DNA of 64,000 nt from Sinomicrobium oceani (GTDB lineage: Bacteria; Bacteroidota; Bacteroidia; Flavobacteriales; Flavobacteriaceae). The first letter of the stretch is position 1. Each line of letters opens with the position of its first letter. The translations under genes and the position numbers were made by a program. The stretch is from positions 62,001 through 126,000 of the forward strand of contig NZ_FPJE01000003.1 of the NCBI RefSeq assembly GCF_900119185.1, given 5' to 3'. The notes beneath the pieces were generated by a model, which had not been told where the DNA came from, made no database searches, and worked only from the letters and a program-made list of their open reading frames with translations. This document shows, in pieces, positions 8,813 through 40,893 of this stretch.

Positions 8813-9958
8813 TCAGGGCATATCATATAGTTTGGCAACTTTCTGCACAATACGCAACCTTACTTCCGAAGTGTTTCTTCGTCCGTAGGCCGCTTTTGTC
8901 TTAAAGGCGAGAACGGTTTCTATGGCAGGGTAAACGGTGATGTTCTGCCCCATAGCCCCTTTGGCGGAATAAGCACCTTCATATCTTTTGTCTCTTACAT
9001 CCTGCCACAACCACCACATATAGCCGTAACCGAAATTGATGCCCGAATTGCGGAAATTGGGTACGTTATGGTTGAGTTCCGTATAAGCGGTCCGTTCGGC
9101 GAGCATTTCATCCACCCAGGATTCGCTGATGACCCTGGTGTCTTTCCATGTTCCTTTATTCAGCATGAGCAGTCCGAGGCGGGCCATGTCTCGTGTAGAA
9201 AACCACATAGGATAGGCGAGGTACCTGGAAATCGCCGTATTCCCTTCTTTGTGTTGCAGGGAACGGTCCCAGTCCTGCATGTGTAAGGGATCGGCGAGCT
9301 GCCGCTCTACTTCGTCATAAATGTTTGTGCCGGTTTCTTTTTCGAAGATATAGCCGGCTACATTAAAATCCCAGTTACTGTAGAGCCAGTAGGTACCCGG
9401 TTTTACACTACCTCGTTCCGGGGCGTATTCCTGCATGCCTCCCGGGTAGCCTTCGGGATGGAATATACCGGATCTTGCCGAGATGATATCCTTTACGGTG
9501 GCTGTCTGCTCTATGGGGAGAATGCCTTCGACATCGTCGATCTCCAGTTCCTTTACTGTTTTATCGAGCCGGATGGTGCCGTTCTCCACATAGCGGCCAT
9601 AGAGCATGGATAGCACGCTTTTCCGGCACGAGGCAATGTAACTTACTTCTTCCACATCGCCGAATTCGAAAACGACTTTCCCCCGGTGTACGATCATCAG
9701 TCCGGTTATTTTGGTACTGTCCGTCAGATATTCCCGGAAGGCATCTGTTTTTTTACGTTCCCATCTTTTGCTTTCTTCTTCAGATGCCCGGTGCCATATC
9801 CTGTCCGGGAATACCTGGGCCCGGAGACGTGTTATGGGACATCCGGTCAGGAGCAAAAGAAATATACCTAACATATATGGTGTCAGCACATCAGTCCGTT
9901 TTTTCAAACCAGACGTTTCTCGCCCTGCCATTACTGGCATATAGTCCTGTAATTTCAT
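8813..9958 (-). CDS. S12-like serine hydrolase (beta-lactamase fold), lipoprotein
   Basis: 381 residues from the first ATG. The fold's catalytic signatures are visible: SxxK as S110-C-R-K113, YxN as Y193-S-N195 and a third motif AKGAMG (332-337). A lipobox, LLLTGC with Cys40, anchors it in the envelope. The first ATG (9958) overlaps the upstream hydrolase gene by 68 bases; ATG codons at 9931 and 9874 (MLGIFLLLLTGC) would give a usual-length signal peptide and less or no overlap, so the start is uncertain. The family includes D-aminopeptidases, DD-peptidases and esterases. As the last gene of the susCD-M20-S12-S12 series it probably acts on peptides or amides in the periplasm. The true substrate is not shown. 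Confidence 0.85.
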   Translation of the reverse strand: MKLQDYMPVMAGRETSGLKKRTDVLTPYMLGIFLLLLTGCPITRLRAQVFPDRIWHRASEEESKRWERKKTDAFREYLTDSTKITGLMIVHRGKVVFEFGDVEEVSYIASCRKSVLSMLYGRYVENGTIRLDKTVKELEIDDVEGILPIEQTATVKDIISARSGIFHPEGYPGGMQEYAPERGSVKPGTYWLYSNWDFNVAGYIFEKETGTNIYDEVERQLADPLHMQDWDRSLQHKEGNTAISRYLAYPMWFSTRDMARLGLLMLNKGTWKDTRVISESWVDEMLAERTAYTELNHNVPNFRNSGINFGYGYMWWLWQDVRDKRYEGAYSAKGAMGQNITVYPAIETVLAFKTKAAYGRRNTSEVRLRIVQKVAKLYDMP

Positions 9959-11534
9959 TGTTTTGGTTTCGTTTGAATTTAATATTCCGCATCGGGTAAT
10001 CTCCCTGTAGTCTGTCTTCCTTTACCGGGGTCAATACTATTTTTCCGTGCCGGATATGGTAGGCAAAGAGTTTCCCGTCTTTGTAATGCAGGGTATAGAG
10101 CGTTTCCAGTTCGGGACTGTAATAGGTCCCCGTATAACTGTTCAGGAGGGCCGGAGTAGGCGGGGTTTTTACAAATTTTTCAAATTGTACGGGGGGGCTC
10201 CCGGCAGTGGGGTAGAGGGTCAAGGTATGGCCCTTAAAAGACAGTTTTTCTGCTGTAGCCGGTTGGACAGGGACAAAAGAATCTTTGGCTGCCGGAAGAT
10301 ATCCGGATATTTTTCTGCCGTTATGGAGCAGCAGGGTATCGCCCCGCGCACTTACCCGGCGTTGCTCGTAGGTTTTGTCATCCCAGTAATCCCCGATAAG
10401 GTTCTGTATATAGCGTTCCGGTAGTTTGATGGTACGGACAGGAGGTTCCTGGTCGTTTTTTCCGAATATAACCGTTGCGATCTCATCCGATAGGGAGGCG
10501 GGAGAAGATGAGGAGAAATTGGTCAGTACGACGATCGATGTTTTTTTTAGGGGAAAGACGGCGGCGTGAGAACGAAACCCACCGATAGAACCTCCGTGCG
10601 AAATACGCTGCTGTCCGTAGAGCGTATCGATATTAACACCAAAGGCATAGCGGTTAAAACTGCCGTCTGTCAACGGGTCCAGAGTCCGCATCATATCAAA
10701 GGCTTTTTCCCACCCGGGCCGAGGATCATAATAGTTTTTCAGGTATTTCAGCATGTCAGCCGTTGTGGTATGGATATTCCCCGAACCCACATAGCCCCAG
10801 TATTCCACAGCCCTGACAAAACCGTTGTCCGTAGCATCATAGGAGGTGGCGTTATCCGGGACCACGCGGTTGTACCGAGCTTCTACATAAGTTGCTGTCA
10901 TCCCCAATGGTTCAAAGATTTCATTTTGCATAAAAGTGGTAAAATCCTGTCCGGTGACGTTCTCAATAATATTGGCCAGGAACATATAACCGGTATTACA
11001 ATACAGGTATTCCGATCCGGGCTGGAAATTGAGATCCTGTTGTGCGGTCATGATCCGGTCCAGGTCGGCATTGGTACGAAGGTCATCATCCCGCCATCCG
11101 GCCAGAGCAAAAAGGGCATGCAGGCTCCGGAGTCCGCTGGTATGATGAAGCATCTGCCGGATGGTAATCCTGTTACCAAACCCGGGCAAATCGTCGATAT
11201 AACGGGATATGGGGGCATCCAAGGATAATTTGTGCTGCAGGTGAAGCACTACGATACCCAGACCACTGAACTGTTTGGAAACGGAAGCTATATTATAGCG
11301 CATCTCCGGGTTGTTGGGCACAGGATATTCGAGGCTGGCCAGGCCATAGGCCCCGGAGAATACCGTTTTGTCTCCCTGCATCACGGCTATACTGCCACCG
11401 GGATGCCCGGGAGCATTCCAGGAGCGGAAAAGGCTGTCTATTTTCGCGTATTGTGTTTCGCTGAGTTGTGCCTGTACTGCTGAGGTGAAAAGCAGTAAAA
11501 AAATCATATACAGCAGGGCTCGAAAGTTGTACAT
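9891..11534 (-). CDS. S12-like serine hydrolase with C-terminal beta domain
   Basis: 547 residues. A Sec signal peptide (cut after AVQAQ, about residue 23) precedes a class C beta-lactamase/DD-peptidase-like domain. Its motifs are SVSK (S84-x-x-K87), YCN (Y178-x-N180) and HGG (H313-x-G315). A C-terminal region (about 370-547, including YTGTYYSPELETLYTLHYKDG) resembles the lipocalin-like DUF3471 tail found on many family members. The gene starts 4 bases after the M20 peptidase stop, so the two are almost certainly co-transcribed. The context (SusC/SusD, M20 peptidase, second S12 hydrolase, D-aminoacylase nearby) suggests a D-amino-acid-specific peptidase or amidase rather than a beta-lactamase. 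This is inference. Confidence 0.9.
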   Translation of the reverse strand: MYNFRALLYMIFLLLFTSAVQAQLSETQYAKIDSLFRSWNAPGHPGGSIAVMQGDKTVFSGAYGLASLEYPVPNNPEMRYNIASVSKQFSGLGIVVLHLQHKLSLDAPISRYIDDLPGFGNRITIRQMLHHTSGLRSLHALFALAGWRDDDLRTNADLDRIMTAQQDLNFQPGSEYLYCNTGYMFLANIIENVTGQDFTTFMQNEIFEPLGMTATYVEARYNRVVPDNATSYDATDNGFVRAVEYWGYVGSGNIHTTTADMLKYLKNYYDPRPGWEKAFDMMRTLDPLTDGSFNRYAFGVNIDTLYGQQRISHGGSIGGFRSHAAVFPLKKTSIVVLTNFSSSSPASLSDEIATVIFGKNDQEPPVRTIKLPERYIQNLIGDYWDDKTYEQRRVSARGDTLLLHNGRKISGYLPAAKDSFVPVQPATAEKLSFKGHTLTLYPTAGSPPVQFEKFVKTPPTPALLNSYTGTYYSPELETLYTLHYKDGKLFAYHIRHGKIVLTPVKEDRLQGDYPMRNIKFKRNQNNEITGLYASNGRARNVWFEKTD

Positions 11535-11538
11535 CCTA

Positions 11539-12834
11539 TTATTTTTTGAGACCGGCCTGGGCCAGGGTGATCAGTAAGGCGAGTTTTATGGCTTCCGGAC
11601 CGTTCTCGTTAAGGTACCATTCGTCGAGGGAATGGGCCCCACCGCCTTTTCCGCCACGACCGATGCAAACGGCCGGAATACCGAGAGCGACAGGGATATT
11701 GATATTGGTAGATCCCCGTCCGGGTTGTGGTGTTTTACCAAAAAAGGAAGTAGCTGCAAGGGCACGTTGTATCAATGGCAATTCGGGGGAGAGTTCTCCC
11801 GAAGGTCTGTCCCCGATGCGGATAAGCTCATACGTAACCTGGTCTCGAATGCCACTCCGGTTATATGCGGTGATCGCCTTTTCTACCGATGTTTTGAATA
11901 TGTCTTCGATTTCCTGAAGGTTACGGGGGTCCAGTGCACGCATGTCTACTTCCATCCAGGATTCGAAAGGGATGGAGTTTATCGATGTTCCGCCGCCTAT
12001 GCGGCCTATGTTAAAGCTGGTTTTGGAAATATCCCCCGAAGTATAGGATTGGGCATCGGTAGCAAAAACATCAATAACTTTTCCGAGGGCATGGTGCGGA
12101 TTGGCCAGCCCGAAACTCCCCCACGAATGCCCTCCTTTACCGGATATAACAAGTTTGTAGCGTCTGGAGCCGAGTCCGGCATAGCTAATTCGCCCGAGAT
12201 CCCCGCCATCGATAGCAATCCAGGAGTCAACGTTCAGTCCGGATTCGTTGAAGATATATTTCATGCCCCGCAGATCTCCGAGTCCTTCTTCACCCACAGA
12301 ACCTACGAAAAGGACGTCTTTTTCTGTTCTGATACCGGTTTTGTTCATGGCTTTCAGGACGCTGATCACCATGGAGAGCCCACGGGTATCATCACCTATG
12401 CCCGGTGCTTTGAGTGTATCTCCCGATTTTTTCACGGTGACATCGGTACCTTCGGGGAAGACCACGTCGAGATGAGCTTCAAGTCCGACATACCCCGGGA
12501 TTCCCGCCGTGCCTTTACGAAGTCCGAGAACATTCCCCGCTTTATCGGTCCAGATACTGTCTATACCTGCCTCTTCGAGCATGGAAGCAAAGCGTTTTCC
12601 TCTTTCGGTTTCTTTAAAGGGAGGTGCGAGTATCTCCGTGAGTTCCACCAGATCTTCCATGGTTTCGTCATCCTGTTCATCGATGACGGTAAAAGCCTTT
12701 TTCAAAGCCTTGTCCTTACCGAGTTTGGTAATCTCCCGGGTATATTTTTTTTGTATGTCCGGGGTATGCTGGGCATGGATATTTAAAGAAAAAGCGATAA
12801 AAAAAGCACCCAGATACAGTGTCATAGTCTTCAT
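11539..12834 (-). CDS. Secreted M20-family metallopeptidase
   Basis: 431 residues from ATG 12834 (MKTMTLYLGAFFIAFSLNIHAQ), which gives a clean Sec signal peptide; an ATG 13 codons upstream adds an unlikely leader. Di-zinc peptidase residues of the M20/M25/M40 family can be seen: H121 in EAHLD, D148 in GIGDD, the E182-E183 pair in GEEGLGD, D210 in IDGGD and a late His in GGAHSLDEW. The dimerisation (lid) domain starts near SGKGGHSWG. The family includes dipeptidases, tripeptidases (PepT-like) and aminoacylases. It lies 100 bases after susD and 4 bases before an S12 hydrolase, so it probably finishes off imported peptides in the periplasm. Confidence 0.9.
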   Translation of the reverse strand: MKTMTLYLGAFFIAFSLNIHAQHTPDIQKKYTREITKLGKDKALKKAFTVIDEQDDETMEDLVELTEILAPPFKETERGKRFASMLEEAGIDSIWTDKAGNVLGLRKGTAGIPGYVGLEAHLDVVFPEGTDVTVKKSGDTLKAPGIGDDTRGLSMVISVLKAMNKTGIRTEKDVLFVGSVGEEGLGDLRGMKYIFNESGLNVDSWIAIDGGDLGRISYAGLGSRRYKLVISGKGGHSWGSFGLANPHHALGKVIDVFATDAQSYTSGDISKTSFNIGRIGGGTSINSIPFESWMEVDMRALDPRNLQEIEDIFKTSVEKAITAYNRSGIRDQVTYELIRIGDRPSGELSPELPLIQRALAATSFFGKTPQPGRGSTNINIPVALGIPAVCIGRGGKGGGAHSLDEWYLNENGPEAIKLALLITLAQAGLKK

Positions 12835-12934
12835 GTTTAAAATTTTAGTGTTAGTGTAAGCGGATCGGACCATTTAAATATAGCCATAATTTAAGGAAAG
12901 GGAAGATTTTACTTCCCTCATCCTATAGTGTTCA

Positions 12935-14341
12935 TTAGTAGTAATCCGGATTCTGATCTATGTTGTCATTCGCGTTGGTTTCTCCGTCGGGTATAGGCAG
13001 GATAAACCGGTCGTTGGGATAGGTGACTTCACATATGGTGGAGGTACAATCTTCGCGTACCATATCCTGTTTGTTCCTGGTAATGTCAAAGATACGGTGC
13101 CCTTCGAAACAGAGTTCTCTTCGTCTTTCCTTCAGGATCTCTTCGGTAAGAGCATCTCCGGTAAGGGTGAGGGGTACTGCATCGGGATTGGCACGTTGTC
13201 TGATGAGCTGCAGATCGGATCGTGCACCGATAAAATCGTTCATTCTGGCCCGCGCCTCGGCACGGTTGAGGTACACTTCGGAAAGGCGGATAACAGGAAT
13301 GTTATCCGTACCTATCTGTGAACCCGAACTCGGATATTTGTTAACCCGCAAACAGCAATATACCCCGCTAAGTTTGGGATCGGACATAAACATGGTTTTG
13401 CGGACATCATTGTCATCCATCATATCCAGCAGATCTTTTGCAGGCAGGTAATCTCCGTACCCGGTGGCTTTATACATACCTCCGAGATGATCGGAGCCGG
13501 GATTGTCCGTAATGCTGTACACCATTTCTACGATGGCTTCCGAAGAATTTCCTTCGAGAAACATGGAGGGATAAGCTGCTGCGGTAGCCAGTTCGTATTT
13601 CTGGCTGTCGATGACATCCGTGGCTTTGGCTTCTGCATTTTCATAGTCTTCCATATAGAGATAAACCCTGGATAACATGGCCTGTGCTGCTTCTTTGGAG
13701 AAATAGCCGGCATTGGAAGGATCTATGGTCATGAGGTCTTCCGCAGTAATGAGATCGGACAATACCTGGGTATAGACTTCCGCTACCGTATTTCTCGAGG
13801 GCAGGGCCATAGGATCGTAGGCAGTAACTACAGGCACCCCGAGATGGGAAGCATCGGCAGTATATGTATAGTGTTGTGCATACAGGCGTACGAGATCGAA
13901 ATGCCCTACGGCGCGTAACATGTACGCCTGTCCGAGGATATTGTTAAATTCGGTTTTGTTGCTTTCCAGGGGTTCGTATTCCGCATTGATCATAGTATTG
14001 GCAATATTGATGCCCTCGTAAATGGTTTTCCAGACGTCTTCCGGAATAAAATTGGTGAATGTACCGTTGTATTCGGCCCATTCCTTGGCCCGGTTGGCGC
14101 TGGCATTCTGCTTTACGTCCTCACCCATGACATCGGGTACCAGCAGAAAATATCTTCCATACCAGTTGGAGCTCTGCATCTGGTCGTACCCACCGAAAAT
14201 AGCTGACTGAAAGTCCTTAAGGGATTTCAGGTATTCCGTATCCGTAATGTTTTGCTGAGGTTCGCGATCTAAAAAATCACTGCCGCATGACAGGGACAAC
14301 ATCAATCCCGCACCTATCAATATTTGTTTAGTTAGCTTCAT
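12935..14341 (-). CDS. SusD/RagB-family lipoprotein (peptide-type locus)
   Basis: 468 residues; lipobox LSLSC (Cys19) then GSDFLDREPQQN, the classical SusD start. The helical core carries AYMLRAVGHFDLVRLYAQ and the C-terminal SusD signature (VIRLSEVYLNRAEA, ERRRELCFEGHRIFDI, YPNDRFILPIP). It is clearly paralogous to the SusD at 34365-35780: both have HFDLVRL, TADASHLGVPV and NDRFILPIP in register. The next genes downstream are an M20 peptidase and two S12 hydrolases, so the bound ligand is more likely peptide-like than glycan. Confidence 0.93.
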   Translation of the reverse strand: MKLTKQILIGAGLMLSLSCGSDFLDREPQQNITDTEYLKSLKDFQSAIFGGYDQMQSSNWYGRYFLLVPDVMGEDVKQNASANRAKEWAEYNGTFTNFIPEDVWKTIYEGINIANTMINAEYEPLESNKTEFNNILGQAYMLRAVGHFDLVRLYAQHYTYTADASHLGVPVVTAYDPMALPSRNTVAEVYTQVLSDLITAEDLMTIDPSNAGYFSKEAAQAMLSRVYLYMEDYENAEAKATDVIDSQKYELATAAAYPSMFLEGNSSEAIVEMVYSITDNPGSDHLGGMYKATGYGDYLPAKDLLDMMDDNDVRKTMFMSDPKLSGVYCCLRVNKYPSSGSQIGTDNIPVIRLSEVYLNRAEARARMNDFIGARSDLQLIRQRANPDAVPLTLTGDALTEEILKERRRELCFEGHRIFDITRNKQDMVREDCTSTICEVTYPNDRFILPIPDGETNANDNIDQNPDYY

Positions 14342-14367: not shown

Positions 14368-17300
14368 TTAAAATCCTATGTTTAGTCCCACACTGACGGT
14401 TTTGTTGATGGGTGTAATGGTGTTGTACACGCCGTTAATGGTCTGTTCCGGATCGAAGTAAAGGGACTTGTCTTTTACCCAGGTCCAGAAATTGGCCATG
14501 TCGATATAGACCCTAAGGCTGCTCAACTGCATCTTTTCGAGTATTTCGGAAGTAAAGTCATAGTTCAGGGTCAGCGATTTCAGCCGGATATAATCTCCTT
14601 CAAAGAGGTAGCGATCGGAATATTGGGTGTTGGACGACTGATTGCCACCCCATCGGAACTGCGGGAATAATGCTTCCTGCCCGGGAGTGGTCCACCTGTT
14701 CTCGAAGGCATAGGCAGAAGTACTTCTCGGGTTATACCTGCCATCGCTGTGGATAACCCAGCCGGGAGCGTCATAGAGATAATTCCCGAATTGGTAATTG
14801 AACATGGCGTTCAGGGAGATGTTCTTATAGTGCGCACTGAGGTTAAACCCTCCGTAGAAATCAGGGGTGGCCGATTTTCCATCGTAATACCGTATGGCAT
14901 CGTTTACATTGTTGGTCGTGGTAGTTTTTGTACCATCGGTGTACCATAGCGGATCTCCGTTGGCAGGATCTACTCCTGCCCAGCCATAGAGGAAATATTC
15001 CTGAATGTCACGGCCTTCTTCGAGCCTTTTGGTGCCATCGGTAATCGGGGAAGGGAGGTATGTGATCTCATTGTTCAAGAAGGTAATATTTCCTCCGAGG
15101 GAAAGTCCGAAATTTTCTGTGTTTACGATATTGGCATGCAGTGCAATTTCCCATCCGCTGTTTTTCATGTCGCCTATATTTTCCGTAACCGATTCGAAAC
15201 CTGTGGTCAGCGAAAGTGGTCTGTCGAGCAGAAGGTCAGATGATACCTTATTGAAGTACTCTACGGAACCGGAGAGGACATAATCAAACAAAGTGAAGTC
15301 TATACCTGCATTGAAAGTGTTCTGGGATTCCCAGGTCAGTAATGCATTTGCCACCTGCGAAGGGGCTGCTGCGGCCTGACCGTCATAAGCTCTGTTAAAG
15401 CCCCATAGCCCGGCCCAGTTGTAATTTCCTATTCCGGCATTCCCGGAAGTACCGTAACTGGTCCTCAATTTCAGGTTGTTGACAAATTTAGCGTCACTCA
15501 TGAAGTTTTCCTTGGATATGGTGTACCCGCCTCCTACAGACCAGAAGGTACCCCATCTGCGGTCCGGTCCGAACCGGGAAGAGCCATCCCGGCGTATGGA
15601 GCCGGAGAGAAAATATTTTTTGTCATAATCATAGTTGATCCGTCCGAAATAGGAGTTAAAAGAGTATTCTATCCTGCTGCTGCCTACCGAAGTCGGATTG
15701 GCTGCATTGTCCAGGTATTTGAGTTCCGGATGCGAAAAGCCTTCGCCCTCGGCACTTACGATCGAGGTTTCCACGGCCTGTGCTTCGTAAGCAGCAAACA
15801 CGTTGAGGCTATGTACCTCGTTGAAGGTAGTGTGATAGTTAAGCGATTGTGTTCCGAGCCAGTTGTACTCGGTTGTCCGTGCTTCTTCGGCAATACCACC
15901 TACATTTCTTCCGTCCCCGTACCTTGCATTTGAAAAGATATATTCGCTGATATTCAGGATATCAAAACTCCATGCGGATTTAAAGGTGAGGTTATCCAGG
16001 ATCTTATAGCTGATGGTGAGGTTGTCGAGAATACGTGACTGATCCAGTTCCCTGCGATCTTCCCTGAGGTGTCCCATAGGGTTGTTTCCTGCCATAATAT
16101 CGGTATGTTCGCCATAGAAATCACCGTTCTCGTCATACACAGGTATGGTAGGAGGTAATAACAGGGCAAGATAAAAAGGGGCCTGCCAACGGGTACCGTC
16201 CGTAATGCCGCGCTGGTGGAATTTGGATAACGACATATTGTTGGTGAGCTGTAGTCTTTCCGTGAGTTTTACGTCTATATTCGCACGGAGTGAGTACCTC
16301 CGGAACATATTCTCTTCTACGATACCATCCTGGTTAAAATAATTCCCGGAAACAAAGTATGTAATGTTTTCACTACCGCCGTTTGCACTCAGATCGTATT
16401 CCTGGGTAATGCCCGTGCGGGTGATCTCGTCATACCAGTTGACATCATAATAATCGCCGGTATCAGGGTTTACGGGAAAAAGCGTGGCAAACTGTGCTGC
16501 GGCCTCATCGGTAGTCAGGGTTCCGGCATTGGCATATCCTTCCATAAAAAGTTGCCTGTATTGTGTGGTATTCAGGGGTTTCAGGAGGTTGTTATAGGCT
16601 TCGGAAGAAAAGCCGAGTTTGGATTTTAAGCTGATCTTTGCTTTTCCGGCCTTACCGCTTTTAGTGGTGATCAGCACAACCCCGTTAGCTCCCCTGGAAC
16701 CGTAAATGGCAGTGGAAGCCGCATCTTTAAGAACGACAAGACTTTCGATATCATTCGGGTTTATGGAAGCCAGAACATTGGAGCTGCTTCCGTCATTGCC
16801 GAAATCGGTTTGTGAAACACTTCCGGAAGTTACCGGAATACCGTCTATGACATACAGCGGATCGTTGGAGGCATTGATAGATCCGATACCTCTGACCCTT
16901 ACCGATATCGCTGCTCCGGGTGCCCCGTCGCTGGTAACGACCTGCAGACCGGGAGAAGCTCCCTGCATGGCATTCTGAAAGCTGGAGGAGGGCAGCATTT
17001 CAAGAGCTTCACTTTTTATCGTGGCGACAGACCCCGTGAGTTCTTCTTCACTCTGCGAACCGTATCCGACTACGATGACTTCACTGAGCTGGGAAGCATC
17101 TGCCTCGAGTTCGACATGCAGTGTGGTACGGTTACCTACCGTTACTTCCGAAGATTTCATACCCATATAGGAAAAAACGAGAATATCATCGGGAGAGGCG
17201 ATGATGGTGTATTTTCCGTCAAAATCAGTGGTTGTACCTTTTGAAGAACCCTTTACCTGTACAGAGACTCCGAGTAATGGCCCGGAATCGTCCGATACCG

Positions 17301-31967: not shown

Positions 31968-33329
31968 TTATATACCTGTTCTGCCGGGCCGGGCGAGAAG
32001 CTCTGTGATGAGCCCCGCTTTTGCTGTGTCCCCGTTTTCCCGGTAAAAAGCCCTTAACTTTTCCAGTTTTTTCCTGTCCCATAGCACATCACGGTGATTG
32101 TTTTCCCATTTACGGATGTCTTGTGTATGGAGATCACAACTCTCTTTTCGAAAAAGGTCACTGGCCTCCGGTTGGGGCAGTATGAGTGGTTTTCCCAGAA
32201 GGTAAGCATCCACAGCAGCCCTGATGGCTTTCATGTATGCCGATTCGAAAGTATTGTTCAGGATAATCACAAGGCTCTTATCTTTCGTAAATCTTTTGAT
32301 GTAGGAGAGGTTTCCGGCCCAGCTCCCGGTATGATATACGATTTTTCCGGTACTGTCGCTCTCCTGTATATGCCATCCGTAACCGTAATCGGAATCGTCT
32401 CCGGAAGGAGGATGTGGCCGGAAGACAACAGCTTTACTTCGGGCATTCAGGATCGTATTGGTATACAGTATACTATCCCACCGGATGAGGTCATCTACGC
32501 TCGAAGAGAGCCTCCCCGGACCGAATCGTCCACTGAGAAAACGGTAATAGTTTTTTCCGGGAAGTGTTTCCGGTCGCACATACGTACAGGTGGCCGGGTT
32601 GAGCCGGTATCCGGGAGCATAATTATCGAGGTCCCAGATACTGTCGCGCTCGTAGAATCCGCTGTTTGTCATCCCGGCTTTATCGAAAATATTTTGCTTA
32701 AGAAAACGATCCAGCGATTTACCGCTTACTACCCGGACCATTTCCGCCAGTACTACAAAGCCCGAATTGGAATAATGATATTTAACCCCGGGTGTGCTTA
32801 GGAGTTCCGGTTTTTCCGTTTCGAAATAAGCGAGGATATCCCGGTTGTAAGCTATACGTGTGGTATCCCAGTGCTTCCGGAAATAATCTTCGTAATCCGG
32901 GAGACCGGAGGTATGGGTAAGCAGGTGTTTAACCGTGATATCTGCGTAGGGGAAATCTTTACCGAGATAATGCTGTGCCGGCAGATCTACGTCGATTTTA
33001 TCCTGTTGCCGGAGTATCTGTATGGCAGCTGCCGTAAACTGCTTGGAAACAGAAGCGATCTCCATAGCGGTGTGTGTGGTAAACGGGGTGTGCTTTTCCA
33101 TATTGGCCGTACCATAACCTTTTTTGAAAATCAGCTCCCCGTTTTTTTTAACGGCGACGGCACCGTTAAACATTTTCCGGGCATACAACGTATCGAAAAA
33201 TGCTTCAAGTACCGGATCGTTAACTTTATTTATTTCCGGATTTACTTCTTTTTTTCCGGAAGTACATGAGCTCAACAGGAAAAGGGAGATGAGGTATAGT
33301 CCGAATGCTATATATAGTTTGATTTTCAT
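31968..33329 (-). CDS. S12-like serine hydrolase lipoprotein
   Basis: 453 residues. Lipobox LLSSC (Cys22) and the complete penicillin-recognising catalytic set: SVSK (S93-x-x-K96), YSN (Y186-x-N188) and HTG (H333-x-G335, in the usual KTG position). It is anchored in the envelope, facing the periplasm or the surface. Its ATG overlaps the stop of the dipeptide epimerase gene (ATGA, 4 bases), implying translational coupling, and DUF819 follows. Next to an epimerase for Ala-Glu-type dipeptides, a peptidase that releases such dipeptides from muropeptides or cross-linked peptides is a reasonable reading. Beta-lactamase or esterase activity cannot be excluded. Confidence 0.9.
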   Translation of the reverse strand: MKIKLYIAFGLYLISLFLLSSCTSGKKEVNPEINKVNDPVLEAFFDTLYARKMFNGAVAVKKNGELIFKKGYGTANMEKHTPFTTHTAMEIASVSKQFTAAAIQILRQQDKIDVDLPAQHYLGKDFPYADITVKHLLTHTSGLPDYEDYFRKHWDTTRIAYNRDILAYFETEKPELLSTPGVKYHYSNSGFVVLAEMVRVVSGKSLDRFLKQNIFDKAGMTNSGFYERDSIWDLDNYAPGYRLNPATCTYVRPETLPGKNYYRFLSGRFGPGRLSSSVDDLIRWDSILYTNTILNARSKAVVFRPHPPSGDDSDYGYGWHIQESDSTGKIVYHTGSWAGNLSYIKRFTKDKSLVIILNNTFESAYMKAIRAAVDAYLLGKPLILPQPEASDLFRKESCDLHTQDIRKWENNHRDVLWDRKKLEKLRAFYRENGDTAKAGLITELLARPGRTGI

Positions 33330-34363
33330 AAGTTTTTGATATGGTTCCAGTCCGGTGTGCTCAACCCGATTCCGGGGAGCCCGTTCGGTTTAATAATTCC
33401 TTTTTCCACGACGTGCCCGGTAAAAGGATCGTTGGTAACAGCGAGGTTTCCGTCGAGGTCTGTCCAGTCGGCCAATGCCCCCAGTTGTGATGCGGCGGCT
33501 ATGGCACATGAGGTTTCTGACATACATCCGAGCATGACTTTCAGTCCGGTTTTACGGGCGACAACAGCCATTTCGAATGCTTCTCTGAGACCTGTAGATT
33601 TCATCAGCTTGATGTTTATGGCATGGTAAAAACGCCCTGCCGTAAGTACATCTGAAAGTCTTTGTATGCCTTCGTCTCCTACAATGGGTAAAGGGGAGCG
33701 GGCTGCGAGCCACTCCATATCGTCATAGGCGGTTTTGGGCATGGGCTGTTCTATGAATACCACGTTCTTTTCTTGCAGCCATGCTATCTTTTCGAGTGCT
33801 TCTTCTTTGTGTTTCCACCCCTGGTTGGCATCGATATACAAAGGCTTTGCAGTTTCTTCACGGACCGTATCGATAATTTCGCGGTCATTACTGCCGCCCA
33901 GTTTTATTTTCAGATAGCTGAAATCTGTAGCTTCCCGTACCCGTTGCCGTATAATTTCGGCAGTATCGATACCTATGGTCTTACTGGTAGCGAGTTCTTT
34001 TCGGGCTAATCCGAAACAGGAATGAACCGGGATACCGAGCAACTTGCCGACAAGATCGTGCAGGGCGATATCCACGGCAGCCTTTACTGCAGGATTTCCC
34101 GGAGCAACACGATCTGTATACTCCAGGATATCTTCGGTGTTAAACGGGTCCTGAAAAGGGGAGAGATCTAACCGTGACAGGAAATCGGTAGCGGTTGCGA
34201 TGCTCTCCCCATACAACGGAGGCATAGAGGCTTCCCCGAAGCCTTCCACACCTTCATAGCGGAGGCGGACCAGGACGAGGGGGGTATTGGTCCTGGCGCC
34301 CCCTGCAATTCTGAAAATGTGCTTTTTATGTAAGGTATAGGGGATATACGATAAGGAAATCAT
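33326..34363 (-). CDS. Dipeptide epimerase (L-Ala-D/L-Glu type, enolase superfamily)
   Basis: 345 residues from ATG 34363, one base after the SusD stop region; an ATG 14 codons upstream lies inside susD. All muconate-lactonising-subgroup catalytic residues are present: KxK (K152-I-K154), metal ligands D178 (YIDAN), E205 (FIEQP) and D230 (VGDEG), and the opposite-face base K252 (NIKLMK). The D302-L-D304 motif (TDLDG) is the hallmark that binds the dipeptide amino group in dipeptide epimerases. The enzyme inverts the C-terminal residue of L-Ala-D-Glu or related dipeptides, making murein-derived peptides digestible. No signal peptide, so it is cytoplasmic. Exact dipeptide preference varies widely in this family and cannot be read here. 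Confidence 0.9.
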   Translation of the reverse strand: MISLSYIPYTLHKKHIFRIAGGARTNTPLVLVRLRYEGVEGFGEASMPPLYGESIATATDFLSRLDLSPFQDPFNTEDILEYTDRVAPGNPAVKAAVDIALHDLVGKLLGIPVHSCFGLARKELATSKTIGIDTAEIIRQRVREATDFSYLKIKLGGSNDREIIDTVREETAKPLYIDANQGWKHKEEALEKIAWLQEKNVVFIEQPMPKTAYDDMEWLAARSPLPIVGDEGIQRLSDVLTAGRFYHAINIKLMKSTGLREAFEMAVVARKTGLKVMLGCMSETSCAIAAASQLGALADWTDLDGNLAVTNDPFTGHVVEKGIIKPNGLPGIGLSTPDWNHIKNL

Positions 34364-34364
34364 A

Positions 34365-35780
34365 TTAATAACCGGGGTTTTGAGGTAAAATATCCGGATT
34401 GGCATTAATCTCGTTCAACGGAATTGGGAGAATAAACCTGTCGTTGGGATATGAAGCTTCGATACTATTTTCGCTTTGTATGATCCTGACATCTCTTTTA
34501 TTCCGATTGAGATCGAACAGCCGATGCCCTTCGAAAGCGAGTTCTTTTCTCCGTTCTTCTATAATACGGTCGGTGAGTTCCGTACCGCTTTCGTCAATTT
34601 CCGATATTCCGGGAGTTGCCCTGTTGACGACTTTCAGCAGATCGGCGCGGGCTTCGGCATCTTTCCCTGTTTTTGCATAGGCTTCCGCGCGGATCAGGAA
34701 CTGTTCCGCAAGACGAAGGATACGGACATTGTCATCGCGGGAGGTCCCCTTCGGAAATTTATAAACGAACAATGCCTCTTCTTCGGCTCCTGTTTTTGCG
34801 CCCAGTCGGATAGCTTCGAGCCGGACATCATTACCGGAATAACTGTTGTAAAGATCGGTTGTGACCAGTGCATCAGCATAACCATCCGGATCAAAATAGT
34901 GCCCGAGTCCGTTGGTACCTGCATTGTCGGCAATGGTATTTACGATCTCAAAAATAGATTCCGTATTGAATTCTTGTGCCCACAACTCCGGATAATCGGT
35001 ATTTGAGATCAGGCTGAACCCGCCGTCGTCTATAACTTCAGTACTCCATACAATGGCGTTATCATAGTCTTCCTGATACAGGTATGCCCTTGCTGCAAGG
35101 GCCTTGACGGCATAGGACGTAAACCTGCCGTCTTTTCTGTCAGCAGCTATTTTCTCCATAGCTACAGACAGGTCGCTGTTGATCTGGTCATAAACCTCTT
35201 TTACCGTATTTCTTGCCGGTGATATTTCATTGTCTTCCGAACGGTTGATTACGGGAACGCCGAGATGGCTTGCATCGGCCGTAAAATTGTAGGGTTGCGC
35301 AAAAAGACGGACGAGATCAAAATGGGCCAGGGCCCGGATCGCATAAGCTTCACCCGTAAGCTGGTCGATCTGTTCCTGTTGTTCCGGAGAAATAGCCTCG
35401 AGTTTCTCGGCACCGTCAATAGCCTTGGAAGCATTGACAATCACCTCGTATAGGATATTCCAGAGCCCGTCGGCAAAGGTGTCTTCTTCACTGACCACAA
35501 AGCCGTCATAATCGAGGTATCTCCCCGTATTGCGTGTACTCAAGGCGAGATTGTCGGCCATAAGCTCAGGAATGACATACATGCTACGTCCGTAATAGTC
35601 CGGGCTTTGCAGCTTACTGTAAACCCCGTTTATGGCAGTTTGCAGGGTGTTGACGTCGGTAATGGCTTTTTCTGACGAAACGTTTTGTTCCGGATCGATA
35701 TCAAGAAAATCACTGCTGCATGAAAACATACAGGAAAGCAGGAGCAGTGAGGCTATGGTATGTGTTATATTTCGAATCAT
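34365..35780 (-). CDS. SusD/RagB-family lipoprotein (dipeptide-epimerase locus)
   Basis: 471 residues; lipobox CMFSC (Cys21), then SSDFLDIDPEQN. SusD core and tail signatures are present (AYAIRALAHFDLVRLFAQ, RILRLAEQFLIRAEA, ERRKELAFEGHRLFDLNRNK, YPNDRFILPIP). It shares long stretches with the SusD at 12935-14341, including YNFTADASHLGVPV and NPGY-type endings, so these are paralogues serving related ligands. It forms the lid for the SusC encoded 12 bases upstream. Its stop codon abuts the ATG of the dipeptide epimerase. Confidence 0.94.
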   Translation of the reverse strand: MIRNITHTIASLLLLSCMFSCSSDFLDIDPEQNVSSEKAITDVNTLQTAINGVYSKLQSPDYYGRSMYVIPELMADNLALSTRNTGRYLDYDGFVVSEEDTFADGLWNILYEVIVNASKAIDGAEKLEAISPEQQEQIDQLTGEAYAIRALAHFDLVRLFAQPYNFTADASHLGVPVINRSEDNEISPARNTVKEVYDQINSDLSVAMEKIAADRKDGRFTSYAVKALAARAYLYQEDYDNAIVWSTEVIDDGGFSLISNTDYPELWAQEFNTESIFEIVNTIADNAGTNGLGHYFDPDGYADALVTTDLYNSYSGNDVRLEAIRLGAKTGAEEEALFVYKFPKGTSRDDNVRILRLAEQFLIRAEAYAKTGKDAEARADLLKVVNRATPGISEIDESGTELTDRIIEERRKELAFEGHRLFDLNRNKRDVRIIQSENSIEASYPNDRFILPIPLNEINANPDILPQNPGY

Positions 35781-35792: not shown

Positions 35793-38700
35793 TTAGAATG
35801 AAAGATCAACGCCGAATAAAAACTGTTTGGAAATAGGGATCCTGAGATCGGATTGTCCGTCTATACCCACTTCGGGATCGATTTCTATTTTATCATCTTT
35901 TACCCAGGTGAGGATATTGGTGGTTTTTACGTAAAAACGAAGGTTATTGATGGCCAGTGTTTCCGTTACGCTTTTGGGCAGGGAATATGCGAGTGTAACA
36001 TCGCGTAATCTCAGGTAAGTCCCGTCATAAAGAAAGCGTGAGGAGTGCTGGGTGGAACGGCCCGATTGGGTATTTCCCCATACGACTTTCGGTACATCGG
36101 TGATATCACCCGGTTGCTGCCACCTGTTATCGTATATGTTTTGTGTCATATTGCCGCGATCGTTAAGTCCGGCACTTCCGTCACTGTTGGTGTACCTGCC
36201 CCAGTAATCGTATACTTTATTCCCGTAATTGAGATAGAAAAGGAAAGACAGGTTAAAGTTCTTATAGCTCAGGTTATTGGTGAGCCCTGCATAGAACTTA
36301 GGTAATGCACTTCCCTGTTTAAAGGGCTGAGCTTCGGAATACTGATTGGTAGTTTCGACCTTGCTGCCATCGGTATACCAAAGGGCATCGCCATTGGCAG
36401 GATCTACCCCGGCATATCCGGGCATGTAGAAGGTATAAAAATCATCCCCGATCTCACGGATATACTGCCCGTCTACTATGGGTGCATCGTCCTGTAGTTT
36501 GGTGATTTCATTGGTGTTGGAAGTGAAATTAAGCCCGGTGGTCCATCCGAAACCTTCCGGATTTTCGATATTGACGGAATTCAGTGAGACCTCCCATCCG
36601 GAATTTTTCATTTCCCCGATATTGGCCAGGTAACTCGTGAGTCCGTTTGTTGCGGATATAGGCACCTGAAAAAGAAGGTCGGTCGTGGTACGGGTGTAAT
36701 ATTCGACAGTACCGTCTATCCTGTTGAACAGGCTGAAATCGATCCCGACGTTAAAGGGTTTGTTCTTTTCCCAGGTAAGCAGCGGATTGGATTGCTGGCT
36801 GTATGCGTAACCGGGCTGTCCGTCATAGTCTTCTCCGGTTGCGTAAAGCCCTCTGGAAGCAAAATCTCCTATTTCCTGGTTTCCGTTTATACCGTAGCTG
36901 CTGCGCAGTTTCAGGCGGTCGACAAATGTTGCTTTTTCCATGAAATCTTCCGAGCTGATATTCCACGCAAAGCCTACCGAACCGAAATTGGCATAGCGGA
37001 CATCGGAGCCAAACCTGGACGAGCCGTCCCTTCGTGCCGTAACGTTAAAAATATATGTGTTCCGGTAGGTATAATTGACGTTGAAAAAATATGAAGCTAT
37101 GGAAGAGGCGGTTTTACTACTGGATGCTTCCCTGTATACCGAGGCATTTTCGAGGGTCTTCAGACCGGGAGCTCCGTAGTTGCTGGCAAAAGCATAGACC
37201 GAACTCCGGGTAATCTTTTGTGCTTCCTGTCCCAGGATAAAATTGAGGTTGTGATCCTCATTGATATTCCAGCGGTATTTGAGCAGGTTGGTAATATTGT
37301 AATTGAGTATTTTATTGTCATAGGCGCGTCCGAGCCCCCCGTCATTTCTTCCTTCACCGAAATAAGGATTGTCATAACGGAATTCGTCGGCAAGGTTGAA
37401 ATCCACATTTCCCTTGGTTTCGAAGCTCAGGTTATCGGTGAAATCATACGTAAGCCCCAGATTTCCAAGGATACCGTATAGTTTGGTCTCCCGGATATTT
37501 TCCTTTACGAGTCCTACGGGGTTATAGGTGAGCAGAATATCGGTGTTGTACGAACCATCCTGGTTGTACACGGGTTCCCAGGGGACTACCCGGAACAGTG
37601 CCCTTACCGGGTTGGCGGCATTTCCCGCATCGCTGTTGGTATGCAGTTTCTGGTTGCTGGCCGAAACCCCGAAATCTATGGTTAGTTTATCTGTTGCCTT
37701 ATGGCTGACGTTGAGTTTCGCGTTTAATTTTTTATAATCGATCCCTATAATAACTCCCTGCTGATCGAACATACCTAATGAGGCATAAAAATTTGTTTTT
37801 TCACTGCCGCCACTCGCACTCAGGTTGTATTGCTGGTATTGTCCGTTGCGGGTGATGACATCTACCCAGTCGGTATTGACATTGCTGTCGATACGACTGA
37901 ATATATAATCTTCGGCCTGCTCGCGGGTTTCCCCGTTATTCATACGTCCTTCCACGAGGAGCTCGGAAAGCTGGCTGGTATTAAGAGGCTTGAGCCGGTC
38001 GGGGAGTATCATGCTGCTTACACCGTACTGGGTACTGAAATCGAATTTGGTCTTTCCGGATTTTCCCTTTTTGGTGGTGATAAGGATCACCCCGTTGGCT
38101 CCCCTGGAACCGTAGATAGCGGTAGCCGATGCATCCTTGAGTACGGTAACCGAGGCGATATCTTTCGGATTGATGCCTGCAATCGTATTGGTACTTGTTG
38201 CGATCTGGCCGATGTTCCCGGAAACTACAGGTATTCCGTCTACCACATAGAGCGGATCGGAACCTGCGTTTATAGAACCGATACCCCGGATACGGATATT
38301 GGGTGCGGCACCCGGTTGCCCGCTTTGCGTGGACATCTGTACTCCGGCAACATTTCCCTGAAGGCTTTCCTGGAAGGAGGCCAGCGGTGTTTCTTCGATC
38401 TTCTTGATGTCGACATTCACGGCAGCACCGGTATATGAAGCCTTACTCTGTTTGTCATACGCTACGACGATAACTTCATTGAGCTGATCGGCTTCCGATT
38501 GAAGGGTAATGTTGAATGATGTTTTACTTCCGTCAATTTTTATACTCTCTTTCTTAAAGCCTATATAAGTCAGTTCGAGAATATCTCCCTTACCTGCGCG
38601 GATCGTAAACTTACCATCGAAATCCGTTTGTGTACCGGAAGTTGTCCCCATCACAACAATATTGACTCCGGGAAGCGGAACCCCGGTATCGTCCAGAACA

Positions 38701-39182
38701 GTTCCTGTAATATCCGTTTGGTCCTGGAGGATACTGCTTTCGGAAGTGTCTCCGACAAATGCAGGGATCTCCGATTCGTGTTCAGGAGGTTCGGTAACGG
38801 TTGGTGTATCTTCGCGATACAGTACGATACTTTCGCTGAGTATACGGAATTTTATGCCGGTATCTGCCAGTACCGCCTGTAATACTTCGGCGATATTGTC
38901 ACTGTTTAGCCGAATATCGATTTTCAGTTTTTCATTGATGATACTGGTGTTATAGAAAAAAATATAGTCGGTCTGTTTTTCTATATTCCGGAGGATCTCC
39001 CGGAGTTCTGTATTCCGGTAATTGAGTTCTACGTGCTGCCCGTAGGAAGCGGTGCTCCAGGCAGATATTTTAAAGATGGTCAGACAAAGGAGTAACGAGT
39101 AGATCTTCATAATGCGGAAGAGTTTACCAGGGCCAAGACATCGTAATGATGCCTGCCCGGTAACTTGTGGCTTTTTTTTCAT
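35793..39182 (-). CDS. SusC/RagA TonB-dependent transporter with STN domain
   Basis: 1129 residues. The signal-peptide region ends near TASYGQ (49). An STN domain (50-122; LNYRNTELREILRNIEKQTDYIF) is followed by a linker, the carboxypeptidase-D regulatory-like domain (157-228), a TonB-box-like NEVIVVAYD (235-243), the plug (DPLYVVDGIPVVSGN, TVLKDASATAIYGSRGANGV) and the barrel ending LFGVDLSF. The STN domain fits with the FecR and ECF sigma genes immediately upstream (94-base gap). The barrel resembles the STN-less SusC at 14368-17379. It takes up the substrate processed by the downstream epimerase and S12 hydrolase. Confidence 0.95.
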   Translation of the reverse strand: MKKKPQVTGQASLRCLGPGKLFRIMKIYSLLLCLTIFKISAWSTASYGQHVELNYRNTELREILRNIEKQTDYIFFYNTSIINEKLKIDIRLNSDNIAEVLQAVLADTGIKFRILSESIVLYREDTPTVTEPPEHESEIPAFVGDTSESSILQDQTDITGTVLDDTGVPLPGVNIVVMGTTSGTQTDFDGKFTIRAGKGDILELTYIGFKKESIKIDGSKTSFNITLQSEADQLNEVIVVAYDKQSKASYTGAAVNVDIKKIEETPLASFQESLQGNVAGVQMSTQSGQPGAAPNIRIRGIGSINAGSDPLYVVDGIPVVSGNIGQIATSTNTIAGINPKDIASVTVLKDASATAIYGSRGANGVILITTKKGKSGKTKFDFSTQYGVSSMILPDRLKPLNTSQLSELLVEGRMNNGETREQAEDYIFSRIDSNVNTDWVDVITRNGQYQQYNLSASGGSEKTNFYASLGMFDQQGVIIGIDYKKLNAKLNVSHKATDKLTIDFGVSASNQKLHTNSDAGNAANPVRALFRVVPWEPVYNQDGSYNTDILLTYNPVGLVKENIRETKLYGILGNLGLTYDFTDNLSFETKGNVDFNLADEFRYDNPYFGEGRNDGGLGRAYDNKILNYNITNLLKYRWNINEDHNLNFILGQEAQKITRSSVYAFASNYGAPGLKTLENASVYREASSSKTASSIASYFFNVNYTYRNTYIFNVTARRDGSSRFGSDVRYANFGSVGFAWNISSEDFMEKATFVDRLKLRSSYGINGNQEIGDFASRGLYATGEDYDGQPGYAYSQQSNPLLTWEKNKPFNVGIDFSLFNRIDGTVEYYTRTTTDLLFQVPISATNGLTSYLANIGEMKNSGWEVSLNSVNIENPEGFGWTTGLNFTSNTNEITKLQDDAPIVDGQYIREIGDDFYTFYMPGYAGVDPANGDALWYTDGSKVETTNQYSEAQPFKQGSALPKFYAGLTNNLSYKNFNLSFLFYLNYGNKVYDYWGRYTNSDGSAGLNDRGNMTQNIYDNRWQQPGDITDVPKVVWGNTQSGRSTQHSSRFLYDGTYLRLRDVTLAYSLPKSVTETLAINNLRFYVKTTNILTWVKDDKIEIDPEVGIDGQSDLRIPISKQFLFGVDLSF

Positions 39183-39276: not shown

Positions 39277-40239
39277 TCAGCGGCGCTTTTTTAGGGATAC
39301 CTGGTTTTTGTTTTTATCATAATCATAATGTATTGGTGATGAGGTCTGTAATATGTCCATAACCTGTATAATGTCGTATTGCTTCCTGAATTTCCCGGAA
39401 AAAGTATAGTCTTCGAGGTCCGGATCTTCTATATGTACCGTAATCCCGTACCACCTTTCAATATCCTTGATCACACTGTTCAACGGGGTGTTGTCGAAAG
39501 TGAGAATACCTTCTTTCCATGAGGTAATGACATCCGTGACTACTTTTTCGACCCGGATATCTTTTTGTTTTTTCCGGAAAACGGCTTTTTGTTTGGGAGC
39601 GAGGATGGCGGCAGGGTCGGGATTGTCGTAATCGTATATTTCTACTTTACCACTGACGAGTGTGGTTTCTATGGTTTCGGTTTCCGGATAGGAGCGGACA
39701 TTAAAGCTGGTTCCGAGAACGCGGACCTGTACTCCGTTCGCGGTTTCCACGATAAAGGGTACGGCTTCGTTACGGGCCACGTCAAAGAATGCTTCTCCGT
39801 GTAATTTTACAGTTCTCGTGTCTTTATTGAATTGCGGGGATATTTCCAGGCTGCTCTCGGAGTTCAGAAAAATGGTGCTTCCGTCCGCGAGCTTAAACTC
39901 TTTTTGTTCGGACGATTTGGCCACATAAAGCATTGGTTTTTCCGTGCCGGGCCATACTATAAAAAGGGCGGAGACCAGGACTGCGATGATTGCAATAGCC
40001 GCAGCAGGTACCATTTTCGTATAAAATTGCCTGCTTCGACGTGTTCTCGATAAGAATTTCCGGAATTCTCCGGCAACATCCGTTTCATGTTCATGTCTGA
40101 AAGAAGCAACCTGCTCCGCTTTGATCCGGTTAAAAACAGCCCGGTTTTCCGGTGATGCTCCGATCCAGTCCATGACCTCTTTACGGAAGTCTGCATCGCC
40201 CTGCTTAGCTATAAATTGTAAAAGTTCTTTTCTGTTCAT
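39277..40239 (-). CDS. FecR-family anti-sigma factor
   Basis: 320 residues. The cytoplasmic N-terminus (MNRKELLQFIAKQGDADFRKEV, DWIGASPENRAVFNRIK) binds sigma. One transmembrane helix (about 76-95, VPAAAIAIIAVLVSALFIVW) precedes the periplasmic FecR domain (SSEQKEFKLADGSTIFLNSESSLEI, VKLHGEAFFDVARNEAVPFIVET) and the C-terminal DUF4974/STN-like domain (IKDIERWYGITVHIED). It lies between the ECF sigma gene (69 bases upstream) and the STN-type SusC (94 bases downstream), so it should relay ligand binding at that SusC to the sigma factor. Confidence 0.94.
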   Translation of the reverse strand: MNRKELLQFIAKQGDADFRKEVMDWIGASPENRAVFNRIKAEQVASFRHEHETDVAGEFRKFLSRTRRSRQFYTKMVPAAAIAIIAVLVSALFIVWPGTEKPMLYVAKSSEQKEFKLADGSTIFLNSESSLEISPQFNKDTRTVKLHGEAFFDVARNEAVPFIVETANGVQVRVLGTSFNVRSYPETETIETTLVSGKVEIYDYDNPDPAAILAPKQKAVFRKKQKDIRVEKVVTDVITSWKEGILTFDNTPLNSVIKDIERWYGITVHIEDPDLEDYTFSGKFRKQYDIIQVMDILQTSSPIHYDYDKNKNQVSLKKRR

Positions 40240-40308
40240 ATATATTAAGAACGATTTACATTAAAGTTACCCCTATGTTAAAAGTGTAATTTTTTTTCAG
40301 GAAAAGTG

Positions 40309-40893
40309 TTAAAGGAACAGTGTGAGGTATTCGCCCAGTTCATTTCGGAGGTGACGAAGTGCTTTTGATATCTGGTTTTCAACGGTTTTGACAGAGATAT
40401 TCAGTTCATCGGCTATTTCCTTGTACTTGAGCCCTTCGAACCTGCTTTTTATGAAGATTTCTTTACATCCCGGAGGAAGTTCGTCAATAAGACGATTTAC
40501 TTTAAGGAGTAATTCGTTTTCTATAAGTTGCAGACTGGGATCGTCCTGAAGAGAAGCTTCGAGAATTCCCGAACGGTTTTTCTCCAGGTCTTCACGGTAC
40601 CTGTACCGTATTTTCTGGTGCTTGAAGTAATCCAGACAATCATTTTTAACCGTAGCGAAGAGGTATGCATTGAGATTCAGATCTGCAGGGAGGGTACCCC
40701 GTTTTTTCCAGATCTTATAAAAGGTGTTCTGTACGATCTCTTTGGCATCTTCTGAATTTTCGATATAGGCGTTGGCAAAGTGATACAGCTTTTCGAAGTA
40801 AAGGTGAAAAAGAGCTTCGAAGGCTGTTTCCTCTCCTTTTTTCAGCCGATGAATAAAAAAAGAATTATTTACGCCGTTTGTATTCAAATTCAA
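40309..40893 (-). CDS. ECF RNA polymerase sigma factor (FecI type)
   Basis: 194 residues with region 2 (ETAFEALFHLYFEKLYHFANAY, DAKEIVQNTFYKIWKK, LNAYLFATVKNDCLDYF) and region 4 (IDELPPGCKEIFIKSRFEGL, KYKEIADELNISVKTVENQI). No ATG is in frame near the expected start. Translation most likely begins at a TTG (40893 or 40887), just upstream of the conserved RLKKGEETAFEALF. It heads the nine-gene minus-strand series. A compact promoter-plus-terminator element lies about 140 bases upstream on the same strand (41030-41098) and could attenuate or regulate it. Confidence 0.93.
   Translation of the reverse strand: MNLNTNGVNNSFFIHRLKKGEETAFEALFHLYFEKLYHFANAYIENSEDAKEIVQNTFYKIWKKRGTLPADLNLNAYLFATVKNDCLDYFKHQKIRYRYREDLEKNRSGILEASLQDDPSLQLIENELLLKVNRLIDELPPGCKEIFIKSRFEGLKYKEIADELNISVKTVENQISKALRHLRNELGEYLTLFL

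Follow-up and report, generated by a model that had tools for sequence, protein, structure and literature searches.

Two adjacent SusC/SusD-based gene modules in Sinomicrobium oceani as candidates for the utilisation of peptidoglycan and D-residue peptides

A 64,000-nucleotide stretch of the genome of Sinomicrobium oceani, a member of the Flavobacteriaceae (NCBI RefSeq assembly GCF_900119185.1, contig NZ_FPJE01000003.1, positions 62,001 to 126,000; the window, with positions counted from its first letter) contains two neighbouring modules, each built around a SusC/SusD (SusCD) pair. Module B (40893-29547, minus strand) runs FecI-FecR-SusC-SusD-epimerase-S12-DUF819-lipoprotein and is followed by a TPR gene. 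Module A (17379-8813, minus strand) runs SusC-SusD-M20-S12-S12 beside a cassette of aminotransferase, D-aminoacylase-like and MocR genes. We propose that these are two adjacent SusCD-based peptide catabolic modules, B for peptidoglycan stem peptides and A for D-residue peptides, a reading to which we give a probability of roughly 0.55. Within it, a peptidoglycan-dipeptide role for module B appears likely, a D-amino-acid role for module A is plausible, and the two, with one plausible theme, may or may not act jointly. The gene order suggests that the modules may work like a polysaccharide utilisation locus (PUL) for peptides. An earlier, sequence-only reading had drawn all of these genes together as one utilisation region from 8813 to 40893. 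Its ends are correct, and a Pfam scan of the window proteins recovered every family it named (two SusC/SusD pairs, an M20 peptidase, three S12 hydrolases, a deacylase, a class IV aminotransferase (AT4), an epimerase, DUF819, MocR and FecI/FecR), each where it had been placed. The single 32-kb utilisation locus is rejected, since module B stands without the module A SusCD in other Sinomicrobium genomes and unrelated genes lie between the modules.

Module B opens with an extracytoplasmic function (ECF) sigma factor of FecI type (40309..40893; TIGR02985 above its cut-off) and a FecR anti-sigma factor (39277..40239). The SusC/RagA TonB-dependent transporter (35793..39182) has an STN match at E 3e-5, below Pfam's cut-off; of the two modules, only B has a FecI/FecR pair and an STN-bearing SusC. 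The SusD lipoprotein (SusDb, 34365..35780; solved matches 3kez, 3mcx and 3myv) precedes the dipeptide epimerase of the enolase superfamily (MR_MLE, 33326..34405), an S12 serine hydrolase (S12a, 31968..33329; PF00144, with SVSK, YSN and HTG), the DUF819 membrane protein (30648..31904), a lipoprotein without family assignment (29547..30542) and the TPR protein (26894..29401), which has an N-terminal hydrophobic stretch; all of these genes are on the minus strand. Across both modules, lipobox-like signals were seen in both SusD proteins, S12a, S12c, the deacylase and the 29547 lipoprotein, and N-terminal hydrophobic stretches in S12b and M20, with neither in the epimerase, the aminotransferase or MocR; these calls were made by regular expression and hydropathy and not by a dedicated predictor.

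The epimerase carries the peptidoglycan side of the proposal. Its best solved matches are 3iji/3ijl/3ijq (E 2.6e-111), and the next is at E 2e-35; 3iji is labelled muconate cycloisomerase in the PDB, and we take it to be the Bacteroides thetaiotaomicron dipeptide epimerase. Aligned with E. coli YcjG, which is annotated as an L-Ala-D/L-Glu epimerase, residues K153, K155, D179, E206, D231, K253 and D303-L-D305 are invariant in 8/8 rows. These positions correspond to the catalytic KxK and opposing lysine, the acidic metal ligands and the DxD motif. R25 is also shared with YcjG, consistent with L-Ala-D-Glu activity. Scores against NF041118 (140.0 vs 500) and NF011708 (124.2 vs 343) lie below the curated NCBIfam cut-offs, and the epimerase is filed by kinship and context and not as a curated equivalog. 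Taken together, sequence, catalytic residues and phylum-wide neighbourhood support its placement in the peptidoglycan-dipeptide group, in agreement with the sequence-only reading of a dipeptide epimerase with a DLD motif.

Epimerases of this group (E 1e-60 or better) occur in 81/395 genomes of the phylum, that of S. oceani included, and we examined the neighbours of 80 of the 88 places outside it. An NlpC/P60 gene directly upstream on the same strand is the most frequent neighbour (31/80); the other neighbour families, grouped without a family search, stand at 17, 14, 12 and fewer of the 80 loci. Those epimerase-adjoining NlpC/P60 proteins that were scanned have YkfC-type SH3 domains. Among the named epimerase loci, NlpC/P60 is present in 6/14, and in four of these (L019, L020, L022, L029) an S12 gene stands beside it. 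The only one of the four in which the run was scanned, from a ruminant Bacteroides (L020), comprises an HGSNAT-like membrane protein, a BadF-type kinase, SIS, an S12 with GDSL, NlpC/P60 and the epimerase. According to the available text of PMC5790795, the N-acetylmuramic acid (MurNAc) kinase of Tannerella belongs to the BadF family and its gene shares an operon with murQ. The SIS protein of L020 would thus be MurQ-like, and it is mainly because this kinase/SIS pair resembles the Tannerella operon that we favour a peptidoglycan role for the epimerase group. SusCD genes stand beside NlpC-epimerase in L068 and L069. The four NlpC/P60 match rows of the S. oceani genome are all on other contigs, so S12 plausibly takes that step in Sinomicrobium. 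An N-terminal extension with a hydrophobic stretch is found in 20/80 epimerases, 16 of them near NlpC/P60, and in 0/7 of those with SusC nearby.

Module B is well conserved and narrowly spread. Epimerase matches at E 1e-80 or better occur in 5/6 Sinomicrobium genomes, S. oceani included, and the module recurs in four of the five others (L031-L034) and in one other genus. FecR, SusC, SusD, epimerase, S12, lipoprotein and TPR are common to the window and these four loci, with the TPR gene following the lipoprotein in all five. DUF819 is present in 3/5 (the window and two of the four others). In the second genus (G021, L037), the order from FecI to DUF819 is kept, and neither the lipoprotein nor the TPR gene was seen in the stretch examined. 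In a family sample, the epimerase is found at E 1e-60 in 3/100 genomes, two of them Sinomicrobium, corresponding to 2/99 genera.

In one Sinomicrobium genome (G094, L033), the S12 and DUF819 coding regions form one continuous 865-codon frame. According to the part of PMC8396727 available, DUF819 belongs to the CPA/AT transporters and has an N-out topology, with which a periplasmic S12 domain at the N terminus would be compatible. A peptidase gene, of the M15 family, is also reported to precede a DUF819 gene in 75 N. meningitidis genomes (PMC12671195, in excerpt). Elsewhere in the S. oceani genome (L038, C19:312000-331999), a second DUF819 gene has an S12 gene upstream on the same strand, with one gene, HAD-like by eye, between them. 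In L049 (G107, 5458-7780), DUF819 directly adjoins a YkfC-like NlpC/P60 gene on the same strand.

The 29547 lipoprotein gave a weak GH18-like TIM-barrel signal. Its AlphaFold model, built from a two-row alignment, is poor (pLDDT 50.8), and in Foldseek a GH18 chitinase (TMq 0.39) heads the best matches, which are TIM barrels. Within an EIQIDCDWT stretch, DCDWT is invariant in 5/5 aligned orthologs; the stretch resembles the GH18 DxDxE motif except that Thr replaces Glu. Five orthologs scanned against Pfam at E 10 gave one weak, unrelated-looking match. A GH18-like fold is a lead only, and the protein could be a non-catalytic glycan-binding protein.

In module A, the genes for SusC (SusCa, 14368..17379), SusD (SusDa, 12935..14341), the M20 metallopeptidase (11539..12873), S12b (9891..11534) and S12c (8813..9958) are closely spaced on the minus strand. 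No STN domain was found in SusCa by Pfam. The two SusC proteins of the window modules score 856.5 and 845.8 bits against TIGR04056 (SusC/RagA; cut-off 368.25). The deacylase, a D-aminoacylase-like amidohydrolase with a lipobox (Amidohydro_3, 17950..19527, minus), ends 570 bp upstream of SusC, and upstream of it are the aminotransferase (Aminotran_4, 19539..20420, minus) and the divergent MocR-type regulator (GntR/aminotransferase, 20559..22058, plus). Full SxxK, YxN and HxG sets had been ascribed to all three PF00144 proteins. S12a and S12b (SVSK, YCN, HGG) bear this out; S12c has SCRK and YSN with no HxG after them, and GAYSAKGAMGQ occupies the place of the third motif, as a motif of this type does in 2/3 of its nearest fetched relatives. 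The aminotransferase is closest to D-amino-acid transaminases, which head its solved matches, as had been expected of it. The deacylase is close to D-aminoacylases but not to them only: 9g5m ('amidohydrolase family protein', E 1.3e-79) heads its 35 solved matches, the D-aminoacylases 1m7j, 1rjp, 1rjq and 1v4y (E 3e-79) and the N-acyl-D-Glu deacylase 3gip come next, and a carbohydrate de-N-acetylase (9kb1/9kb3, E 2e-70) follows at a short distance, before a gap to E 1e-8.

Support for the role of module A comes from linked gene sets in two distant genomes of other families. L162 (G241) has, in a row, MocR (61%), a DAP_DH-type dehydrogenase, AT4 (55%), M20 (56%) and deacylase (64%). L161 (G172) has MocR (58%), a DAP_DH-type dehydrogenase, AT4 (46%), deacylase (65%) and an S12c relative (36%). 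These sets link two genes of the SusCD operon, M20 and S12c, with the aminotransferase-deacylase-MocR cassette and make the D-amino-acid role plausible. Among the ten deacylase loci examined (L161-L170, picked from the top-scoring rows of a longer list), these are the only two with AT4 and MocR nearby; MocR homologues of 48-61% stand near a deacylase in L139, L143, L161 and L162. Within Sinomicrobium, a deacylase relative of 60% is found in G102 on another contig, beside S12 genes (L138), with more distant relatives in G102 and G094 and none at 1e-40 in 3/6 genomes. None of the other five Sinomicrobium genomes yielded a counterpart of the module A SusCD.

Further combinations of the same families occur elsewhere. 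In L058 (G387, another family), one run holds FecI, FecR, SusC, SusD, a DUF4843-like gene, an epimerase (59%), an S12a relative (45%) and a deacylase (41%), followed by DAO and NhaC-type genes. A second epimerase locus in G094 and G102 reads SusC-SusD-DUF4843-S12-epimerase-S12 (L035, L036). Both genomes also have loci (G094 C38, L142 and L143; G102 C27, L139-L141, with most C27 assignments made by BLAST to G094 proteins) that combine SusCD, DUF4843-like, FGase, gamma-glutamyltranspeptidase and penicillin-amidase genes with Asp/Glu racemase, several S12, deacylase, S9, SDF symporter and MocR genes; these resemble loci for the utilisation of gamma-glutamyl or D-Glu peptides. G102 C26 has S58, S12, asparaginase-2, S51, Asp/Glu racemase, an S12c relative and a deacylase. 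All of these loci were found by following homologues, and they are neither a random sample nor accompanied by a background rate. The idea of a peptide counterpart of a PUL is partly supported by the single run in L058 and by the conservation of module B in the genus, in the form of two modules and not of one locus.

Under our proposal, module B would be controlled by FecI/FecR, and its SusCD would deliver short peptides to the periplasm, most likely those of peptidoglycan stems. There the S12 lipoprotein would trim them, and DUF819 would carry the resulting dipeptide, for example L-Ala-D-Glu, across the inner membrane. The signal-less epimerase would convert L-Ala-D-Glu to L-Ala-L-Glu, a reaction type indicated by its residues and kin with the substrate presumed, and ordinary dipeptidases would finish the process. 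For module A, families and recurring neighbourhoods suggest that SusCD imports D-residue or N-acylated peptides, that M20, S12 and the deacylase release D-amino acids outside the cytosol, that the cytosolic D-amino-acid-type transaminase deaminates these, and that MocR may regulate the transaminase/deacylase pair. Module A was probably gained beside B, which is common to most of the genus.

Several results weigh against this proposal. The linkage of SusCD to the epimerase is exceptional in the phylum: within 6 kb of the epimerase, SusC is found in 7/80 loci, SusD in 3/80, S12 in 3/80 and the deacylase in 1/80, by BLAST to window proteins, which can miss distant homologues. NlpC/P60 was not seen within three genes in 49/80 epimerase loci, where some neighbours are housekeeping-like by eye (mutL-, ftsY- and purF-like). 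The joining of S12 and DUF819 is seen in one genome only, DUF819 is missing from L032 and L034, and 20 DUF819-centred loci showed no fixed partner. As a general partner of the epimerase, DUF819 is rejected, being present within 6 kb in 0/80 phylum loci. The deacylase is absent from all ten loci (L151-L160, about 20 kb each) with the closest phylum relatives of the SusD subtype, of which 3/10 have S12 and 1/10 a confirmed M20; the subtype is therefore not tied to D-amino-acid genes and is weak as a marker of D-amino-acid loci. At the level of genomes, the deacylase is present in 6/9 others with the SusD subtype against 79/295 (P 0.013, with relatedness ignored and the 296 genomes of both searches taken as identical).

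The curated families are a further weakness. Among the matches listed, no NCBIfam cut-off is reached by S12, M20, the epimerase, the deacylase or the transaminase, and the module enzymes are classified solely from their kin and surroundings; of the module proteins scanned, both SusC, FecI and MocR exceed one. For the transaminase, TIGR01121 (D-amino-acid transaminase) is the best of 19 families listed, at 233.7 bits against 277.45. PdxR is the regulator of pyridoxine biosynthesis, and the MocR protein scores 377.8 bits against the PdxR cut-off of 320 (NF052282) and 383.3 against 650 for the rhizopine MocR model; it may serve vitamin B6 supply instead. This match and the sugar de-N-acetylase among the deacylase kin lower our confidence.

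It is possible, if on balance doubtful, that only module B is what we propose and that module A, an unrelated operon, came to lie next to it by chance, with no common theme. SusD genes are common in the S. oceani genome (55 PF07980 and 21 PF12741 match rows, some genes giving more than one), so the presence of two SusCD pairs is in itself unremarkable. The best SusDa matches in the other five Sinomicrobium genomes are at most 43% identical, and in four of them the match is the module B SusD (42-43%). In G101, no module A gene was detected by BLAST in 18.7 kb upstream of the MFS gene (L171). SusDa has relatives in the phylum (46-51%) that resemble it more closely than SusDb does, and most of these are without D-amino-acid genes. 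The genes between the modules are unrelated to either. However, SusDa and SusDb are mutual best paralogues within their own genome, and both the L058 run, which unites SusCD, epimerase, S12 and deacylase, and the linked M20, AT4, deacylase and MocR genes of L162 weigh against coincidence. A different and unlikely reading makes the epimerase an N-acyl-D-glutamate racemase (DgcA-like), or an enzyme of gamma-glutamyl or poly-gamma-glutamate peptides, with N-acyl-D-Glu or poly-gamma-glutamate and not peptidoglycan as substrate. DgcA is its top NCBIfam match, an N-acyl-D-Glu deacylase (3gip) is among the solved matches of the deacylase, and Sinomicrobium loci pair SusCD with gamma-glutamyltranspeptidase, Asp/Glu racemase, FGase and SDF symporter genes. 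The DgcA score (197.7 bits) is nevertheless below the cut-off of 400, no epimerase was seen in the gamma-glutamyltranspeptidase loci examined (L139-L143), and the epimerase group is most often beside YkfC-type NlpC/P60 genes and, in L020, beside MurK/MurQ-like ones.

Less probable again is a region for degrading glycopeptides, amino sugars or D-residue antibiotics, on which S12, M20, the deacylase and GH92 would act. The position of GH92 between the modules and the de-N-acetylase kinship of the deacylase are in its favour, as is the fact that the S12 proteins resemble not beta-lactamases alone but also D-peptidase and D-aminopeptidase enzymes. It leaves the epimerase without an evident role, though, GH92 was not found in the fetched module B flanks of G101 (L031, L171), and no resistance-family cut-off is reached among the matches listed.

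The genes separating the modules, on the plus strand and placed in neither, encode MFS (22228-23490), NIPSNAP (23579-24355) and GH92 (24450-26738) proteins, the last with a lipobox; together they span 22228-26738, and the TPR protein (26894-29401) also lies between. The modules are not distinguished by GC content. The genome has nine PF00144 matches in 5.02 Mb, and the Poisson probability of at least three in a pre-chosen 32 kb is 3e-5, or about 0.005 allowing for some 157 such windows, a significance that is overstated because S12b and S12c are in tandem. Two more SusC/SusD pairs flank the region (1590-6769 and 41711-46849). The first belongs to a separate locus (331-8561) of SusD-like_2 type, which includes a FecI/FecR pair of its own as well as a lipoprotein with a BACON domain. 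The second belongs to a candidate polysaccharide locus (41711-53003) with DUF4861, DUF2264 and BNR_4 proteins and a weak GH127/GH88-like protein, and its SusC also adjoins module B in L031, L032 and L033. Genes for the Na+-translocating NADH:quinone reductase (nqr) were identified by Pfam at 57020-62939.

SusCD-type outer-membrane importers are best known for sugars. If our proposal is correct, some Bacteroidota take up cell-wall peptides of other bacteria and D-amino-acid peptides with machinery usually read as sugar uptake, the annotation of many SusCD loci would change, DUF819 would gain a function, and there would be a route for recycling the D-amino acids of deep-sea dissolved organic matter, of which they are important components (PMC12363236, from the portion available). 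The gene set is compact and testable. More tentatively, it may represent an unnamed class of SusCD-dependent D-peptide/peptidoglycan utilisation loci in Bacteroidota, consisting of an outer-membrane importer of muropeptide-derived or D-residue peptides, a periplasmic S12 D-peptidase in physical linkage with DUF819 as inner-membrane carrier of L-Ala-D-Glu-type dipeptides, and a cytosolic epimerase, with larger versions perhaps adding gamma-glutamyltranspeptidase, Asp/Glu racemase, deacylase and a glutamate symporter. We found no description of a SusCD-epimerase locus in the titles and abstract openings of the literature matches listed, whose coverage leaves out most subscription journals.

Parts of this arrangement have counterparts in known systems. 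In PULs, SusCD, ECF-sigma/FecR and hydrolases share one operon, a composition also seen here, with ECF-sigma/FecR in module B only; here peptidase-type and D-amino-acid enzymes replace the glycosidases. RagAB of Porphyromonas gingivalis is a SusCD-type pair, as in both modules, and to our knowledge shares no operon with an epimerase or D-amino-acid enzymes. It has been implicated in protein uptake (PMC11817032, in the text available). Peptidoglycan scavenging, as proposed for module B, has Bacteroidota counterparts in the Tannerella murT-murK-murQ operon (PMC5790795, in excerpt) and L020; unlike the former, no MurK- or MurQ-like gene was identified among the window module genes, and unlike module B, the fetched Bacteroides loci showed no SusCD. 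The closest parallels are ycjG-mpaA of E. coli, where ycjG adjoins the murein tripeptide amidase gene mpaA, and ykfBC of B. subtilis, where YkfC adjoins the epimerase (PMC5808125, as excerpted). Their epimerases have the same catalytic residues as that of module B, by alignment with YcjG, whereas in module B the epimerase is joined with a SusCD importer of the outer membrane and with sigma/anti-sigma control, and the places of YkfC or MpaA are taken by the S12 lipoprotein and DUF819.

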